Shown here: positions 4,230 through 49,100 of the stretch, in pieces
Layout: the number at the start of each line of letters is the position of its first letter
How positions within the stretch are numbered: the stretch's first letter is position 1
Origin: Candidatus Hydrogenedentes bacterium ADurb.Bin170
GTDB lineage: Bacteria > Hydrogenedentota > Hydrogenedentia > Hydrogenedentales > CAITNO01
Assembly: GCA_002070275.1 (NCBI GenBank)
Contig: MWCY01000018.1
Coordinates: 1 to 56,346, forward strand
Reading direction: 5' to 3'
DNA length: 56,346 nt
Made by a program: the position numbers and the translations under genes
The notes under the pieces: model-generated
What the model was told of the DNA's origin: nothing
Database searches by the model: none
The model's input: only the letters and a program-made list of their open reading frames with translations

Positions 4230-4316
4230 ACTGTTGATAAGATCCCATAGTGGCACATCGACAGACAACAGAACTCCGGACAGTGTAAAAAAAAACAGCA
4301 AGGATTTTTGCTTTTT

Positions 4317-6632
4317 ATGGCTTCCTCTCTGGCATTGCATCTGACCAAATGGATACTGGATCTGTCCAGCAGGCTGATCAAGGCAAAGGTACGGCTGCAC
4401 AATGCTGAAGTCATTGATCCGACTGCGAGCATCATCTTTGTTGCCAACCACTTCACGCGTCTTGAAACGATTCTGCTTCCCTGGCTCATCCATCAGCATA
4501 CCGGGCTGACCCCGGGCTCTCTCGCCGATGCAGCGCTTTTTCAAGGGAGAATCGGCTCTTTTTTGAAGGCAACAGGATCCATTTCAACAGAAAACCCCGA
4601 CCGGGACAGCCTCATCATTCGCGCGCTCCTGCGTGGAGATCACCCGTGGATTATTTTCCCGGAAGGTGCCATGATCAAGGACAAAAAGACGCGGAGCCAG
4701 TCGGGTGAATTTGAAATTTTCGACGGAAACAGAAAACGTCCGCCCCACAGCGGAGCCGCCGCACTGGCACTTCGCGCCGCCTATTACCAGACCAAACTGC
4801 AATGCCTCCACAAGAGGGAGGACGAAAGCGACCTGGCAAAAGCGCTCCGGAAATTCGATATAGAAAACTCATCCGACATTTCCAACCGGAAAATAGTCCT
4901 CATACCAACCAACATCACCTATTACCCCATCCGCGCCCGTGAAAATATTTTTCTGAAAGCAGCGCGGCTGATGGCGCCTGACCTGAGCAGCCGCTCTCTC
5001 AGCGAGTTATCTGTTGAAGGCACCGTTCTTTCCGAGGATACGGACATCGACATTCGCTTTGGCGAACCTATAGAAGTGCTTCGCTATCTGGAAAAACCGG
5101 AGTATGCCTCTTTTATGTCGTGCAGCCTGAATGATCTGGAAAGTCTGGAGTCAAATCCCAAACAGATGCTTCAGGATGTGGCTCTCCAGATTACCAACAG
5201 GTACATGGATGAGATATACAAAAATACTACGATCAACATCGACCATATTCTGGCTGAGATCATACGGCAGCAGCCCGACGACCGGATTTTAAGCGAGCGC
5301 GGCTACAGAGAGCGTGCCTATCTCTGTATACACCGGATCCTCCGATCCGACTGTCAAGTGCATCCCGATCTGAGCGATCAATGTCAGCGCCTCATTTATG
5401 ACGAACCTCACGAGGCATTCACCTCCTTTATGGACATGGCGGTGCAAACCGGTTTTATATCGCCGGTAAAAAGAGGATTTAAACGCTGCCCCCGCTATAT
5501 CATGCTTACGCCCACTTTTCATGAAATGCCCCGCGATGCGACTCCTGAAGTTATCGCCAACGAATTTGAGGCCGTAAGGAGCATTCCCCCTTCGGTTCGC
5601 CGCATTGCTTTCGCACCGGATTTTCTGATAAAAGCCGCATTACGTCGCCATCTTGTCCGCCTGGACCGGGAAGACTTCGAAGAAGACTATGCCCGGTTTT
5701 ACCAACCGGCGGAAAGCAAACCTCCCTGGGTAGGGCGTCCCTTTCTGCTGCGCCCCTGGCGCATCCGGGGCGGAGTGGTGCTTGCGCACGGCTACATGGC
5801 GGCACCGTTGGAAATCCGTGCCCTTGCAGAACATCTGTGCCGCGCCGGTTATGCCGTCTACGGTGTACGCCTCAAAGGGCATGGCACAGCACCCGAGGAT
5901 CTGGAGCAAAGGCAGTGGGAAGAATGGTATGCATCACTGAACCGTGGCTATGCTGTAATGCGAACGATAACCAACCATATCGTGGTAGGCGGATTTTCGA
6001 CGGGCGGTTGTCTGGCACTGCTGGCGGGGGCACAAAAGCTTTCACATATCAAAGCAATATTCACGATTTGTGCACCCCTGCATGTCCGCAGCTACTCCAT
6101 CCGGCTGGTGCCCTCCATCGTCACCGTAAATACACTGCTTAAAAAACTCGGACAGAAGCAGTATGCCAAGGAGTATGTGGACAATAATCCGGAAAACAAA
6201 CATATCAATTACACACGCAACCCCTTGACTGGAGTTAAGGAACTCAAAGCGGTTATGGCGGCTGCCGCCGAAGTCCTGCTGCGCGTGCAGCAACCCACGC
6301 TTGTCATACAGGCTTCCAAGGACACTACCGTTGATCCGTCCAGCGGTCCGGAAATATTTGAGGGTCTGGGTGCAGTCGACAAACAGCTGACACTCTTTGA
6401 ACGGCGCCGTCATGGTATAATAAATGGTGAAGGAAGTCCGGAAGTATTTGTACAGGTGGAACAATTCCTGCACCGTACCCATAAACAGGCGCAGTCTCGG
6501 CAGTACTGGCAATTCGGCAGGCGTCTGGGAAGATTTTTTTATCGCCGGAAACCGGAGTCTGAAAATGAAGTTCAGGAAGTGCAGCCATCCGATGCGGAAG
6601 TAATAATAGAAGAAGAAAAGGAAAACTATTGA
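4317..6632 (+). CDS. PlsC-like acyltransferase fused to an alpha/beta hydrolase
   Basis: A 771-residue two-domain protein. The N-terminal part resembles the lysophospholipid/glycerol-3-phosphate acyltransferase family: NHFTRLE is an H-x4-E variant of the usual H-x4-D motif (about residues 45-50), and FPEG lies at about 114-117. A middle helical linker follows. The C-terminal part (about 480-710) is an alpha/beta hydrolase with VLAHGY (oxyanion region), GFSTGG (nucleophile Ser near 560), SKDTTVD (Asp near 668) and RRRHGI (His near 698), so the full Ser-Asp-His triad is present and it resembles monoacylglycerol lipases. Joining an acyl-transferring and an acyl-removing module suggests lipid remodelling; that role is inferred. 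The C-terminus is charged (Glu-rich). The start is uncertain: the ATG at 4317 has AGGA 12 nt upstream, and a TTG at 4308 is the only in-frame alternative before a stop at 4248. Confidence 0.75.
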   Translation: MASSLALHLTKWILDLSSRLIKAKVRLHNAEVIDPTASIIFVANHFTRLETILLPWLIHQHTGLTPGSLADAALFQGRIGSFLKATGSISTENPDRDSLIIRALLRGDHPWIIFPEGAMIKDKKTRSQSGEFEIFDGNRKRPPHSGAAALALRAAYYQTKLQCLHKREDESDLAKALRKFDIENSSDISNRKIVLIPTNITYYPIRARENIFLKAARLMAPDLSSRSLSELSVEGTVLSEDTDIDIRFGEPIEVLRYLEKPEYASFMSCSLNDLESLESNPKQMLQDVALQITNRYMDEIYKNTTINIDHILAEIIRQQPDDRILSERGYRERAYLCIHRILRSDCQVHPDLSDQCQRLIYDEPHEAFTSFMDMAVQTGFISPVKRGFKRCPRYIMLTPTFHEMPRDATPEVIANEFEAVRSIPPSVRRIAFAPDFLIKAALRRHLVRLDREDFEEDYARFYQPAESKPPWVGRPFLLRPWRIRGGVVLAHGYMAAPLEIRALAEHLCRAGYAVYGVRLKGHGTAPEDLEQRQWEEWYASLNRGYAVMRTITNHIVVGGFSTGGCLALLAGAQKLSHIKAIFTICAPLHVRSYSIRLVPSIVTVNTLLKKLGQKQYAKEYVDNNPENKHINYTRNPLTGVKELKAVMAAAAEVLLRVQQPTLVIQASKDTTVDPSSGPEIFEGLGAVDKQLTLFERRRHGIINGEGSPEVFVQVEQFLHRTHKQAQSRQYWQFGRRLGRFFYRRKPESENEVQEVQPSDAEVIIEEEKENY

Positions 6633-6826
6633 CACTTTACCATGGTTTATGTTAGTTTTTAGGGTAATGGATTATGGCTGTTTAGACTGTCGTGCCTCTT
6701 TGTTGTTAAAATAACGGCCACAACATAGGTACCGCTAACAGTTTTGTAACGGTTTCGAACTCATTTTCGGGACACGCAACCTAAAACAGTATGGGCGCCT
6801 GCAAATGCGCCACAGGAATCAGCGTC

Positions 6827-8482
6827 ATGCGGAAACATATTCTCTTCATTATTGTGCCGGTGTTGGCTATTTCTTGTGTGCTGTGTCCTCCGGATGCACA
6901 GGCCTGGGGACCTAAAGCCATGCGCAGTATTACTGCCATGAGCCTGCAGGTTCTTAAAAACGATTACTCCGATGTCTTCCGTCCGGGCGGTATCGTGGGC
7001 GTAAATTTTGAAAAAGACGTCGCAAGCGGATCAGCCGATGGCTGGCAGATTCTCGCCAAATTTACACCACTGAATTCAGACGCCGAAGTGGTGGAGGCGG
7101 TTGCCAGCGAGATTCAGCTGCTCCGTGAAGCACGCACCTACGGTCCCACGTCCTATTTTGCTTATAGAATGGGAGTACTCAGTTCTCTCACTGCACATAT
7201 TATGATGCCCTACGGATTCGTGTGGACAGCAGAAGATCAGGAGATGCGGCGCAAAGTAGTGACCGATCTGGAACAGCAAGTCGATTCTTTTCATTTCAGA
7301 GTTCCCAAGAAAAACAGAGACTTCATCCGCAATGCAGGGACATTCTTTCAGGAGAAACGCTCTTCATTTGCTGAAGACAAACGACTGATCGCCCATGATT
7401 ACAGGATTGGCAAAAATTATAATGGATATCTGAAACAGGGCGGACAGGCCTATTTTATTCGCGCTGTTGAGACAGTGGCAGATGTGTGGAACACTGTTCT
7501 GCAGCATGAGGATACCGTCCGTGCCTTCGGGTTATCACGTCCTTCTGACAGAAGCCTTGCCTGGTACTTTGTGCAGGAAATGGAATATCTGCTCAACGTC
7601 AAAGACAATATGACTCAGGTTGAAATTGTCTACAAAAACTTTGAAAAAGTGGGCGTGGGTATGACTGATGCCATGGAATATATCGGCGATATGCTCTATG
7701 CCTATCCCCAGAAAAGCGTCAAACTGCGCGGTGTCGCCGAATGGCAGAAAGCCTTTGACATGGGCGGAAAAGACCGTCTGCACCTGGGCTCCAAACTGTC
7801 TGCCCACTACATGCAGGAAGGCAACGATTATCTGGCGCATGCGGCACAGCCCGACGCTGAGGAAACCGATCTGAACAATGCCAAGCGCGCCTTTGAGGAT
7901 GCACTGAATTATGACCGTTCCAATGAAGCGGCCGCCAAACTTATTCAGGAAACGGACGTTGCCATCCGCGAGCGCAATGAACGGCTCGAAGTGGTGCTCA
8001 GCATCATTGCCACGGGGGAACGTATTCACGAAGAAGCCAACCGCTACAGAGAGATGCAGGACTTCGCCAATGCCATCAGCACCTACCGCCAGGCTATCGG
8101 CTTTTTCGACGCTGTAGACGATGAATTCAAAGTACACGCCAATACCGCCCGTGAAAATGTGCGCCGTCTGCGCCGTGAAATTTCAGATCTGATCAACGAA
8201 GTTCTGGACGCGGCAAGTCAGGTTATTGATGAAGGCGACCGGGCGCGGGATAATAATCAGTTCGATGAAGCCTCCAATAAATATCAGTCCGTTTCCCGCA
8301 TCGTCTCGGTGATTCCCGAAGACGAGTCGGCAACAGTGCTGAGAGACAAACAGGAGGTCATCGACCTTGCCGGCAGGAAACTTGAAGAGTCCAACGTACA
8401 GAAGCTGCGCTATGAACAGATGCTTCAGGAGCAGGCTCAGCAGGCACAAGCGGCACAGCAGGCACAGCAGCAGCGCCGCTGA
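6827..8482 (+). CDS. Secreted TPR/coiled-coil protein of unknown function
   Basis: I do not recognise the family. The ATG at 6827 is preferred over 6791 because AGGAA lies 9 nt upstream and it opens a clean signal peptide cleaved near AQA-W (about residue 26). The mature N-terminus begins WGPKAMRSITAM, faintly like the Trp/His start of S1/P1 or phospholipase-C zinc enzymes, but the remaining His/Asp ligands are not evident. Residues about 330-500 are helical with TPR-like spacing, including DLNNAKRAFEDALNYD and DFANAISTYRQAIGFF. The tail is a coiled coil ending in Gln/Ala repeats. A scaffold or a degenerate enzyme are both possible. The gene stands alone between non-coding gaps and is followed by an intrinsic terminator. 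Confidence 0.7.
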   Translation: MRKHILFIIVPVLAISCVLCPPDAQAWGPKAMRSITAMSLQVLKNDYSDVFRPGGIVGVNFEKDVASGSADGWQILAKFTPLNSDAEVVEAVASEIQLLREARTYGPTSYFAYRMGVLSSLTAHIMMPYGFVWTAEDQEMRRKVVTDLEQQVDSFHFRVPKKNRDFIRNAGTFFQEKRSSFAEDKRLIAHDYRIGKNYNGYLKQGGQAYFIRAVETVADVWNTVLQHEDTVRAFGLSRPSDRSLAWYFVQEMEYLLNVKDNMTQVEIVYKNFEKVGVGMTDAMEYIGDMLYAYPQKSVKLRGVAEWQKAFDMGGKDRLHLGSKLSAHYMQEGNDYLAHAAQPDAEETDLNNAKRAFEDALNYDRSNEAAAKLIQETDVAIRERNERLEVVLSIIATGERIHEEANRYREMQDFANAISTYRQAIGFFDAVDDEFKVHANTARENVRRLRREISDLINEVLDAASQVIDEGDRARDNNQFDEASNKYQSVSRIVSVIPEDESATVLRDKQEVIDLAGRKLEESNVQKLRYEQMLQEQAQQAQAAQQAQQQRR

Positions 8483-46113: not shown

Positions 46114-49100
46114 TTATTCGCGGCGAAGATCTAACAGGAGCGATTGGGATCGGGTCACTAGCAGCGCAAGAGCAACGCTGAGCGCACCGCCAGCAAGCAT
46201 GGATAAAAAACCTATAAACTGAAGCAGGAGAGGAAGGGTGGTGGAGGAAAGCAGCACAGACGGCAAAAGAGCCGTGAGAGATGCACCCCCGCCCAGAATC
46301 GCGGCAACCAGCAGAATAGCAGCATTTTCAACAACCAGCAAGCGGAGCAAATGCCTCTTTTCGTACCCCAGTACCTGAAGCATTGCCCATTCAGCACGCC
46401 TTTCAATACGGCTCCGGGCTGTGATCACGCCTATCCCCAAAGCGCCCAGTGTCACGCCTAATACACCCAAAACGAGGAAAAGACTGAGATACGAGCGCTC
46501 TACCGCATAAAAATGCTCCAGACGCTGCAGCGTTGTTTCTACCTGCATTCCCGACTTTTCTTCCTGCCGGTGCAGTCGGCGGATGGTTTCTTCCGTATTT
46601 TCGTTCTGAGAATCAAAAAGGAAGGCGCGAAATCCGCTTTCCGATGGAAAAATTCTCGTAAAGTTATCCAGAGATATCAGAATACTCCCCTGAAAAACGG
46701 AAAGACGCATGGGCAGCGCTCCGACAAGGCGTACAGAAATTTCCTTACCTTCGTCATCAGAATAGTACAAAACATCCCCTTTTTCAGGATGTGTTTTAGC
46801 CTTTAATCCCCACATTGCCGTATCCATGTCCCCGACAAGGGCAGGAATGGCGCCATCCGGCGATTCCTGTTCGAGTAATGACCAGACGGATGCACCGTCA
46901 GCGTCTTTGTCAAAGGCTCCTCTTTTTTTCATGACCGCCGGATCAACCCCGTAAATACCGGGAACAGCCGCCCGGGTCAGATTCAGGCAGCCGGCATCAT
47001 CTCCCTGCCGGAGCCGCAGCGCTACAGCATCGATCCCTTCCAGTTTCGGGGCTTCGGTCAGGGCTGCTGTTGTTTCTCCGAACAGCGCAAACCCGCCTGT
47101 GCCGGAACTTCGCTCCGCCGCATGTTTCCCGAGGTCTTCCTGCATGGATATTACGGAAATGGCAATAAAAACACCACACGCGAGGAGTGCTGCCGCACTG
47201 GTATTTCTGCCGGGACGACGGGTCAATTGCTGTAGTGCAAGTTTGTTCAGAGACAGGCTCCCGCCTTCTTTTTCCATCTGGAAAGACCGCAGAAAAAGAT
47301 ACCAGGCGTAAATCCCGAAGCCCAGAAGCCAGGTGCCTGTTGCGAAAAAGAAAGGTGCCGTGGCAGCCGGCCGAATAACAAAAACAGCAGCGACCGCTAT
47401 CAGTCCCGCCAAAAGACCGCCGAAAGCAAGACCGTGCGCCAGCCTGCCCGGACGCCCGGCAGCTGTTAAGGCTTTTTTCTGGGAAAAATCCCGGTGCAGC
47501 AGTTCGCGCACAGGACGCCGGCACTGACGCCACACAGTCCAGCACACCGCCAGTAATGGAATACCGGCTCCTGCAAAGAAGCCGCTGAAAAGCGTTTTCA
47601 GTTTCAGATGAAACAGAATCATTGTTCCTGCGACCGCACCTGCCCAGGCGTGCCTGAGCCCCTGAAGAAGCAGGGCTGCATATCCCGCTCCAGCCAGCAT
47701 TCCTGCTGTTGCCCCTGCCACGGCAAGCAATGCCGCCTCAATACTGAAAATGCCCCAGATCCGGGAAGGCGGAAATCCCAGGGCAAGGAGAGTTCCCATT
47801 TCAGATGCGCGCTGCTGCAGGCTGAACGTAAACAGCAGAACAGACAAAAGAACTGCTGAAAAAATGAGGAAAAAGCTCATTCCCAGAAACAGCTGCCCGA
47901 GATCCAGAGCCTGGTCAACTGAATGAAGCGCCTCTTCCCGAACCGGATTAAAACGAATTCCGAGCATTTCCGGTGAAATCTTATTCAGAAGGGCTTTTTC
48001 CAGCGCAGGAGCATTCCCCCAGCCTGCGGGGAAATGAAGCGCCGTATATTGACCGAAGCGGCTGCCCCACATTTTCTGTCCGGCAGATAAATTCACCCAG
48101 AGCTTCGGCGTTTGGCGCCATTGGTTCCAATAATCCTCGTTATCCTTGTCCTTCAGAGCCGCCTCATCCATGGGCATGCCTATATCCCAGTCCGTGCAGC
48201 TTTCCACATCGATAAGCCCCGGAAACAGAGGAATCGCTTCCCGCGCTTTTTCCAGCGCTTCCATAGACCAGATTTCTTTTATGCGGAACTGCCGCGCCTG
48301 CTCCTGAAACTCATTGGAGGGCGTCACGACAAACCAACGGACTGTAATCGTGTCGCCCATGCTTACATCCAGTTTTTCAGCAGTCCACCGGTTGATGATT
48401 GCTTCTTCGTCATTCAGCTGAGCAAGCGAAGCGTCTGCCACTGCGAATGAATAAGGAGTGGAATGCCTTTCGCCGGAAATGGAATTCACCAGATACGCCA
48501 GACTTCCCTCTGCCTGCGGCAGGGTCAGGGCGGCGTCTGCAATCGTCCTGTCCAGAAAGATTCTCTCAGATTCCAGAAGATAAGACTGATCGGACAGCGC
48601 GCGGATTTGAAATCCTGCATCCCGCAGATGCATCACCTTTTTCAGTTCTGCCTGCAGCTGCCCTTCGCTCCAGGTCTCTCCTGCAAGAAGAAGGTTGGCC
48701 TTCCCCTCCAGATCCACCAGTTCCTGAAGCCAGCGCAAAGGAACAAAGACGTTATAGGGTGTCCTCTGTTCATTATTTAAATTAAAACGCCCGGCGCCGT
48801 TGTCTGACACAATATCTCCGACTTTCACCTGTACACGTATCGCCGCAGCATCGCCGCCCGGCGACAGCGGAGCATCGAAAGCCATCAGACCGGGTTTCAC
48901 CACACGAAGTGCAAAACGATCTCCCCTGCCTGCATGAAGCGCCCGGGCAAGATGCTCATTTACAATCACTTCCTGTGCATTCCATTGTGGGGCGTCAGTG
49001 CCCGATAACTGCCAGAATGCATCGTCGACCCCCAGCACCTGCACCCGATTCACCCGATACAGCGGGTCGGGCGCGCCGGATTGAAGCGCCATGCCCTGAA

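Follow-up and report, generated by a model that had tools for sequence, protein, structure and literature searches.

Can one bacterial polypeptide both add acyl groups to lipids and remove them, and would its two sites need each other? The question is raised by a gene of Candidatus Hydrogenedentes bacterium ADurb.Bin170, located in a 56,346-nucleotide stretch of DNA (contig MWCY01000018.1, positions 1 to 56,346) that is referred to here as the window. An earlier note on this DNA had described a single chain in which a PlsC-type motif pair, with the variant H-x4-E in place of H-x4-D, is joined to a Ser-Asp-His lipase-like triad. It had proposed a domain search and a survey of the phylogenetic spread of the fusion, and had pointed to unfused genes in close relatives as the sign of an assembly artefact.

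Two sets of catalytic motifs in one open reading frame

The gene occupies an open frame that encodes 771 amino acids from ATG 4317 and extends upstream, without interruption, to a TTG at 4308. Because an AAGGA sequence at 4300-4304 lies 12 bases ahead of the ATG and only 3 bases ahead of the TTG, the ATG is the likelier start as judged by spacing; alignments with relatives, which mostly start at residue 2-8 of the TTG version, are compatible with either codon. Residue numbers are counted from ATG 4317 throughout. The features of the gene and of its downstream neighbour are as follows:

4317..6632, + strand: fusion gene, 771 amino acids from ATG, one open frame with its stop at 6630-6632; TTG 4308 is the alternative start
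4386..4784, + strand: acyltransferase core PF01553, residues 24-156 (Pfam)
4449..4466, + strand: H-x4-E motif, H45 to E50 in NHFTRLET (alignment of fusions)
4656..4667, + strand: FPEG motif, F114-P115-E116-G117 (alignment of fusions)
5157..5606, + strand: helical middle region, residues 281-430 approximately, with the NxDH motif N307-H310 (structure comparison with GPAT1; weak sequence alignment with GPAT_C and the PlsB chain)
5766..6425, + strand: alpha/beta hydrolase, Hydrolase_4 PF12146, residues 484-703 (Pfam, fold comparison)
5997..5999, + strand: Ser561, predicted nucleophile, in GFSTGG (alignment)
6321..6323, + strand: Asp669, predicted triad acid (alignment)
6411..6413, + strand: His699, predicted triad base (alignment)
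6791..8482, + strand: gene for a TPR-like protein, possibly exported, a recurrent downstream neighbour (weak TPR matches below cut-off; signal peptide judged by eye)

In Pfam, the window protein matched PF01553 at 32.9-34.1 bits against a cut-off of 23 and Hydrolase_4 at 70.9 bits against a cut-off of 27. Both domains are above cut-off in the search that the earlier note had proposed, and with H45, E50, FPEG, S561, D669 and H699 all present in the one 771-residue frame, the description of a single chain carrying both motif sets intact held up. No NCBIfam model scored above its own cut-off for the window protein, and no plasmid record covered 80% of the query. The residues H45, E50, S561, D669 and H699 are unchanged in all 28 rows of one alignment of relatives (A1). 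Because the most hydrophobic 19-residue stretch reaches a mean of only 1.49 (Kyte-Doolittle) and lies inside the hydrolase core, the protein is likely to be cytoplasmic and placed on the membrane surface.

The C-terminal half of the whole-chain model (mean pLDDT 78.8) gave Z 33.4-34.7 and rmsd 1.7-2.1 against bacterial monoacylglycerol lipases and LipS, the top match of this predicted model being a bacterial monoacylglycerol lipase (Z 34.7, rmsd 1.9, 247 residues aligned). The carboxylesterase Est30 ranked lower (Z of about 28), as did human MGLL (Z 27.8). On the alignment, the Hydrolase_4 score and the modelled fold, residues 446-726 are predicted to be a monoacylglycerol-lipase-like serine hydrolase with the triad S561-D669-H699, in agreement with the lipase-like triad described before. 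Elsewhere in the window genome (G000), contig C11 has a tandem pair of hydrolases from this superfamily (46190-47829) that share 25-26% identity with the C half. The hydrolase half also has a paralogue that stands alone, with at least 8 genes in a second group of genomes described below and with a gene for an HlyIII/PAQR-type membrane protein directly upstream in all five loci fetched (L138-L142; assigned by Pfam in one and by cluster in the others). PAQR proteins include ceramidases, and this paralogue and its neighbour may be another lipid pair.

Since the hydrolase half filled the whole-chain fold searches, the N half was modelled separately (AlphaFold, residues 1-444; mean pLDDT 79.1, pTM 0.82). 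Human GPAT1 was the only Foldseek match of this model at E of 0.001 or lower (E 5.6e-8) and also its best match in VIA (8e4y; Z 17.7, rmsd 4.1, 319 residues aligned, model residues 6-426), followed there by Thermotoga PlsC at Z 13.4 over 191 residues. In the predicted model, the VIA alignment with GPAT1 continues from the core through the helical middle region. By sequence, PF01553 was matched by 34 of 35 N-half members (Pfam, E up to 10) and GPAT_C (PF19277) by 22 of the 35 at the same threshold, mostly weakly (best 1.3e-6), the window protein scoring 12.4 bits, under the cut-off of 25. When PDB sequences were searched with a profile, the single hit was weak: a chain of the glycerol-3-phosphate acyltransferase PlsB (9vuq, E 0.27), aligned over the NxDH region. 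Since the top structural match extends across the helical middle, we read residues 1-430 as a divergent GPAT1/PlsB-like acyltransferase that appears closer to GPAT1/PlsB than to PlsC. The motif pair that had been called PlsC-type is thus present, as H-x4-E and FPEG, but the half that carries it resembles GPAT1/PlsB more.

The window genome has four further PF01553 matches besides the fusion. With these, the fusion cannot be the cell's sole PlsC-type enzyme, and it is likely to be an accessory, and not a housekeeping, acyltransferase. A PF01553 match on contig C3 of this genome (52803-53078) lies within a frame of about 1200 codons, of a kind that recurs in relatives, and is possibly part of the known transporter-acyltransferase-synthetase fusion.

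Spread of the fusion and conservation of its motifs

Of 68 genomes assigned by record titles to Hydrogenedentota, the phylum of the window, and counting the window genome itself, 34 carry both halves in a single frame; among these 34, the fusion of G054 is cut at profile position 705 and that of G018 begins at a contig end. The remaining 34 comprise 6 genomes with the gene in two pieces, 7 with the hydrolase only, 4 with a decayed N half and 17 with at most distant hydrolase paralogues. A further apparent hydrolase-only case (L060) was dropped, because it begins at the edge of a contig and the same genome has an N-terminal piece (L066) on another contig. In the second group, reached via records titled Deltaproteobacteria and Syntrophaceae, the fusion was found in at least 41 of 345 sampled genomes, 7 with a dead hydrolase included, a lower bound given that scoring was limited to three candidates per genome and to E up to 1e-35; two draws from this group took nearly identical genomes and do not count as independent. 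Of 14 genomes in a third, small group, entered via a record titled Omnitrophota, 2 have the fusion, with sequences that cluster with those of Hydrogenedentota. Because a Sumerlaeota-titled sequence (L042) and an Omnitrophota-titled one (L047) cluster among the Hydrogenedentota sequences in the tree, the fusion in records with these titles may reflect transfer or mislabelled bins.

The spread of the one-frame fusion therefore covers Hydrogenedentota and a second, Deltaproteobacteria-titled group. A chance joining of two genes, or an assembly artefact of the kind that the earlier note had in mind, is contradicted by same-frame halves in 34/68 and at least 41/345 genomes; we take the fusion to be real and give the artefact next to no probability.

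Catalytic marks were counted in 76 aligned fusions, among them 30 of the 34 Hydrogenedentota fusions in one frame; the four decayed relatives were tallied separately. Fusions cut by a contig end (such as L043, L045, L050 and L051) and the one-piece fusions of G024, G045, G047 and G054 are outside these counts. The H and E of H-x4-E are present in 76 of 76 (76 of 80 when the decayed relatives are counted), PEG in 74 (the exceptions, L010 and L011, have TDH) and Ser at the GxSxG position in 68; 63 fusions show the full set of six catalytic marks. In its weak PDB alignment (E 0.27), the PlsB chain carries Asp in the H-x4-E position. A regular expression for the motif pair says little: of the 12 loci with PF01553 proteins to which it was applied, it picked up 2, both H-x4-D, and missed the other 10. 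Because every aligned fusion keeps H-x4-E, and because the H and E of this motif are catalytic in LpxL/LpxM according to a review (PMC6286764), the alignment identifies H-x4-E as a family trait with precedent and no defect. The variant that had been singled out for notice is there, but it is no oddity within the family.

Separation of the two halves and neighbouring genes

Genes for the hydrolase half only are found in 7 genomes of the window's family (G004, G005, G006, G011, G012, G014 and G016), in frames of 346-448 codons situated away from contig ends. A search of these genomes with an N-half profile (A2, E 0.01) did not find the lost half elsewhere; the same search recovered the N half in G000, G013, G007 and G043, and also missed it in the four decayed genomes. 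In the hydrolase tree, the hydrolase-only proteins nest inside full-length ones, which does not favour the hydrolase alone as the ancestral state, on mixed support (0.92 for the enclosing clade, 0.93 for L059 with the full-length L019). Because inner nodes reach only 0.32 and 0.44, our count of at least two losses of the N half is tentative. In four genomes of another family (L061-L064), an N half that is still long but lacks the motifs stands alongside an intact hydrolase; a profile search of their frames recognised this half in L061 and L062 only, L063 being 44% identical to L062 there and L064 being assigned by position and length. In the second group, a single clade of 7 genomes (support 1.0) retains H-x4-E and PEG and has lost the hydrolase Ser, Asp and His. 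Glu takes the aligned Asp position of the hydrolase in L135 and L145, and L097 is cut. One genome (G158) has tandem copies of the fusion, L125, which is intact, and L102, in which the hydrolase Ser is replaced by Gly and the Asp by Asn.

Because the 7 hydrolase-only, 4 decayed-acyltransferase and 7 dead-hydrolase relatives each lack one site, the alignments indicate that the two sites are separable, and an obligate cycle of adding and removing, or obligate channelling, is unlikely. That one enzyme could both add and remove acyl groups, as first proposed, is possible. The same relatives bear on a tighter arrangement, a coupled transacylase or single-chain Lands-cycle enzyme, in which the acyl group removed by the hydrolase would be passed to an acceptor on the acyltransferase half. 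The 63 of 76 aligned fusions with every catalytic motif intact fit such coupling, but the single-site relatives suggest that neither half needs the other, and a fatty acid, once freed, requires activation before it can be used by an H-x4-D/E enzyme; we consider this arrangement quite unlikely.

Substitution rates were compared between the halves. In the one close pair that has both sites intact and is unsaturated enough to score, pN/pS is 0.097/0.70 for the N half and 0.113/0.69 for the C half, which indicates purifying selection on both halves in that pair. As several pairs approach saturation at synonymous sites, only non-synonymous counts were compared. Relative to 15 control pairs, for which the N/C ratio is 0.61-1.82 (0.86 for the window against L005, 1.27 for the window against L006, and 13 more), the pairs with a broken acyltransferase fall outside the range, at 2.7 (L010/L011), 3.0 (L061/L062) and 2.0 (L063/L062); the controls, L082/L085 included, were hand-picked from the tree and are non-random, and 14 of the 15 have all motifs aligned in both members. 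Three pairs of the dead-hydrolase clade gave 0.63, 0.73 and 0.63; these are low values that still fall within the control range, so that faster change in their C half finds no support, and the rates prove nothing there.

The decayed halves persist as long stretches in two lineages, with pN below pS, as might be expected if one half were the working enzyme and the other a targeting or regulatory module, which here would mean a hydrolase with an acyltransferase-like sensor of membranes or acyl chains. However, the window's genus has both sites intact and both halves similarly constrained, and H-x4-E is kept in 76/76 aligned fusions, so that a single working half seems rather unlikely to us.

A GDPD gene lies directly upstream of the fusion on the same strand, overlapping it or 3 bases off, in 6 of 66 loci (L044, L107-L110 and L119; confirmed by Pfam for L044, L110 and L119, and for the other three by a profile built from the confirmed ones). 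Five of these loci form one clade (support 1.0), with L119, which holds the gene of L095, separate; one more locus (L126) has a GDPD gene downstream, and none lies beside the fusion in the window. The upstream position of GDPD is a hint of glycerolipid turnover. The other neighbours vary by lineage: the TPR-like gene cluster adjoins the fusion downstream in 7 loci, the window among them, PilZ is upstream in 4 Hydrogenedentota-type loci (3 tested in Pfam), CvpA is downstream in 5 (one tested in Pfam), and NADH-dehydrogenase-like subunits occur in others. Neighbours that differ in this way would suit two halves that catalyse unrelated lipid reactions and are merely co-expressed in one chain, but one linear order of the halves is kept in both sampled groups, and we hold unrelated reactions to be distinctly improbable. 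Farther upstream in the window, a 480-residue frame (191-1633, + strand) has no Pfam match at E 0.1; by eye, it looks glycoside-hydrolase-like.

Candidate role and known systems

We favour, at about even confidence, a bifunctional glycerolipid-turnover protein with two separable sites, probably cytoplasmic and on the membrane surface. This reading draws on the domains and motifs, the fold matches to GPAT1 and monoacylglycerol lipase, the GDPD gene upstream in 6 of 66 loci, the separable halves and the N/C rate ratios. Against it are the GPAT_C score below cut-off, the weak PlsB match, the lack of GDPD at the window, the restriction of five of the six upstream GDPD cases to one clade, the four further PF01553 matches in the genome, a hydrolase fold that also fits carboxylesterases such as Est30, and a C half that changes no faster in the dead-hydrolase clade than in the control pairs. 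In such a protein, H45, aided by E50, would take a proton from a hydroxyl group on the acceptor, a glycerol-phosphate or lysolipid, and the acceptor would receive an acyl group from acyl-ACP or acyl-CoA at the N half; the C half would free a fatty acid from monoacylglycerol or a lysolipid via an acyl-serine intermediate. Both sites would then act side by side on one glycerolipid pool (deacylation, salvage and reacylation) without obligate channelling, and GDPD, where present, would supply glycerol-3-phosphate to this route. A more ambitious form, in which the hydrolase strips an acyl group from a membrane glycerolipid and the GPAT-like H-x4-E half rebuilds it, as a fused Lands-type remodelling cycle in one chain, is rather unlikely; if it were true, the halves could be discarded singly once remodelling was no longer needed.

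Among open-licence literature, we found no account of a bacterial acyltransferase-hydrolase fusion, which is no proof of absence, and we rate the protein as two known enzyme folds in a combination for which that literature gave no printed precedent. Any annotation of such proteins as plain alpha/beta hydrolase or PlsC may be due for correction. Compared to GPAT1/PlsB, the fusion aligns with GPAT1 in one stretch over core and helical part (Z 17.7 to 8e4y) and GPAT_C is matched in 22/35 members, but it has H-x4-E where the PlsB chain has H-x4-D, its GPAT_C score in the window is below cut-off, and a hydrolase is attached. The bacterial monoacylglycerol lipases of Bacillus sp. H257 and Geobacillus, and LipS, share the fold (Z 33.4-34.7), GxSxG, Asp and His, whereas here the fold forms the C-terminal half of a two-enzyme chain. 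With LpxL/LpxM the fusion shares H-x4-E, catalytic there according to the review (PMC6286764), but the best fold matches of its N half are GPAT1 and PlsC, and no lipid A acyltransferase family appeared in the Pfam lists of the window protein and 35 N halves.

Hydrolase and LPLAT-type acyltransferase are also united in a single chain in the phytyl ester synthases (PES, ELT family) of plants and algae, according to three papers (PMC12526585, PMC9111173, PMC12048435), and this precedent for joining these two kinds of domain speaks for a coupled transacylase. In PES, however, the hydrolase region precedes the acyl-acceptor pocket, the reverse of the order in the fusion (PMC12526585), and the acyltransferase is given in these sources as a member of the DAGAT PF03982 superfamily, which was absent from the Pfam matches of the window protein (E up to 0.1) and of 35 N halves (E up to 10). 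A comparison by role is with PlaF, a phospholipase A1 of P. aeruginosa, for which one paper proposes the part of the deacylase in a bacterial Lands cycle, calling the acyltransferase for its products unknown (PMC9132575); that this partner is still to be named likewise leaves room for a coupled transacylase. Like the hydrolase half of the fusion, PlaF is a lipid hydrolase proposed to act ahead of an acyltransferase on membrane lipids, but it is a single enzyme, and it is likened here by role. Bacterial phospholipid remodelling is still without a defined deacylase-acyltransferase pair, and the conserved two-site chain, together with relatives that lack either site, offers a ready-made test set with natural single-site controls.
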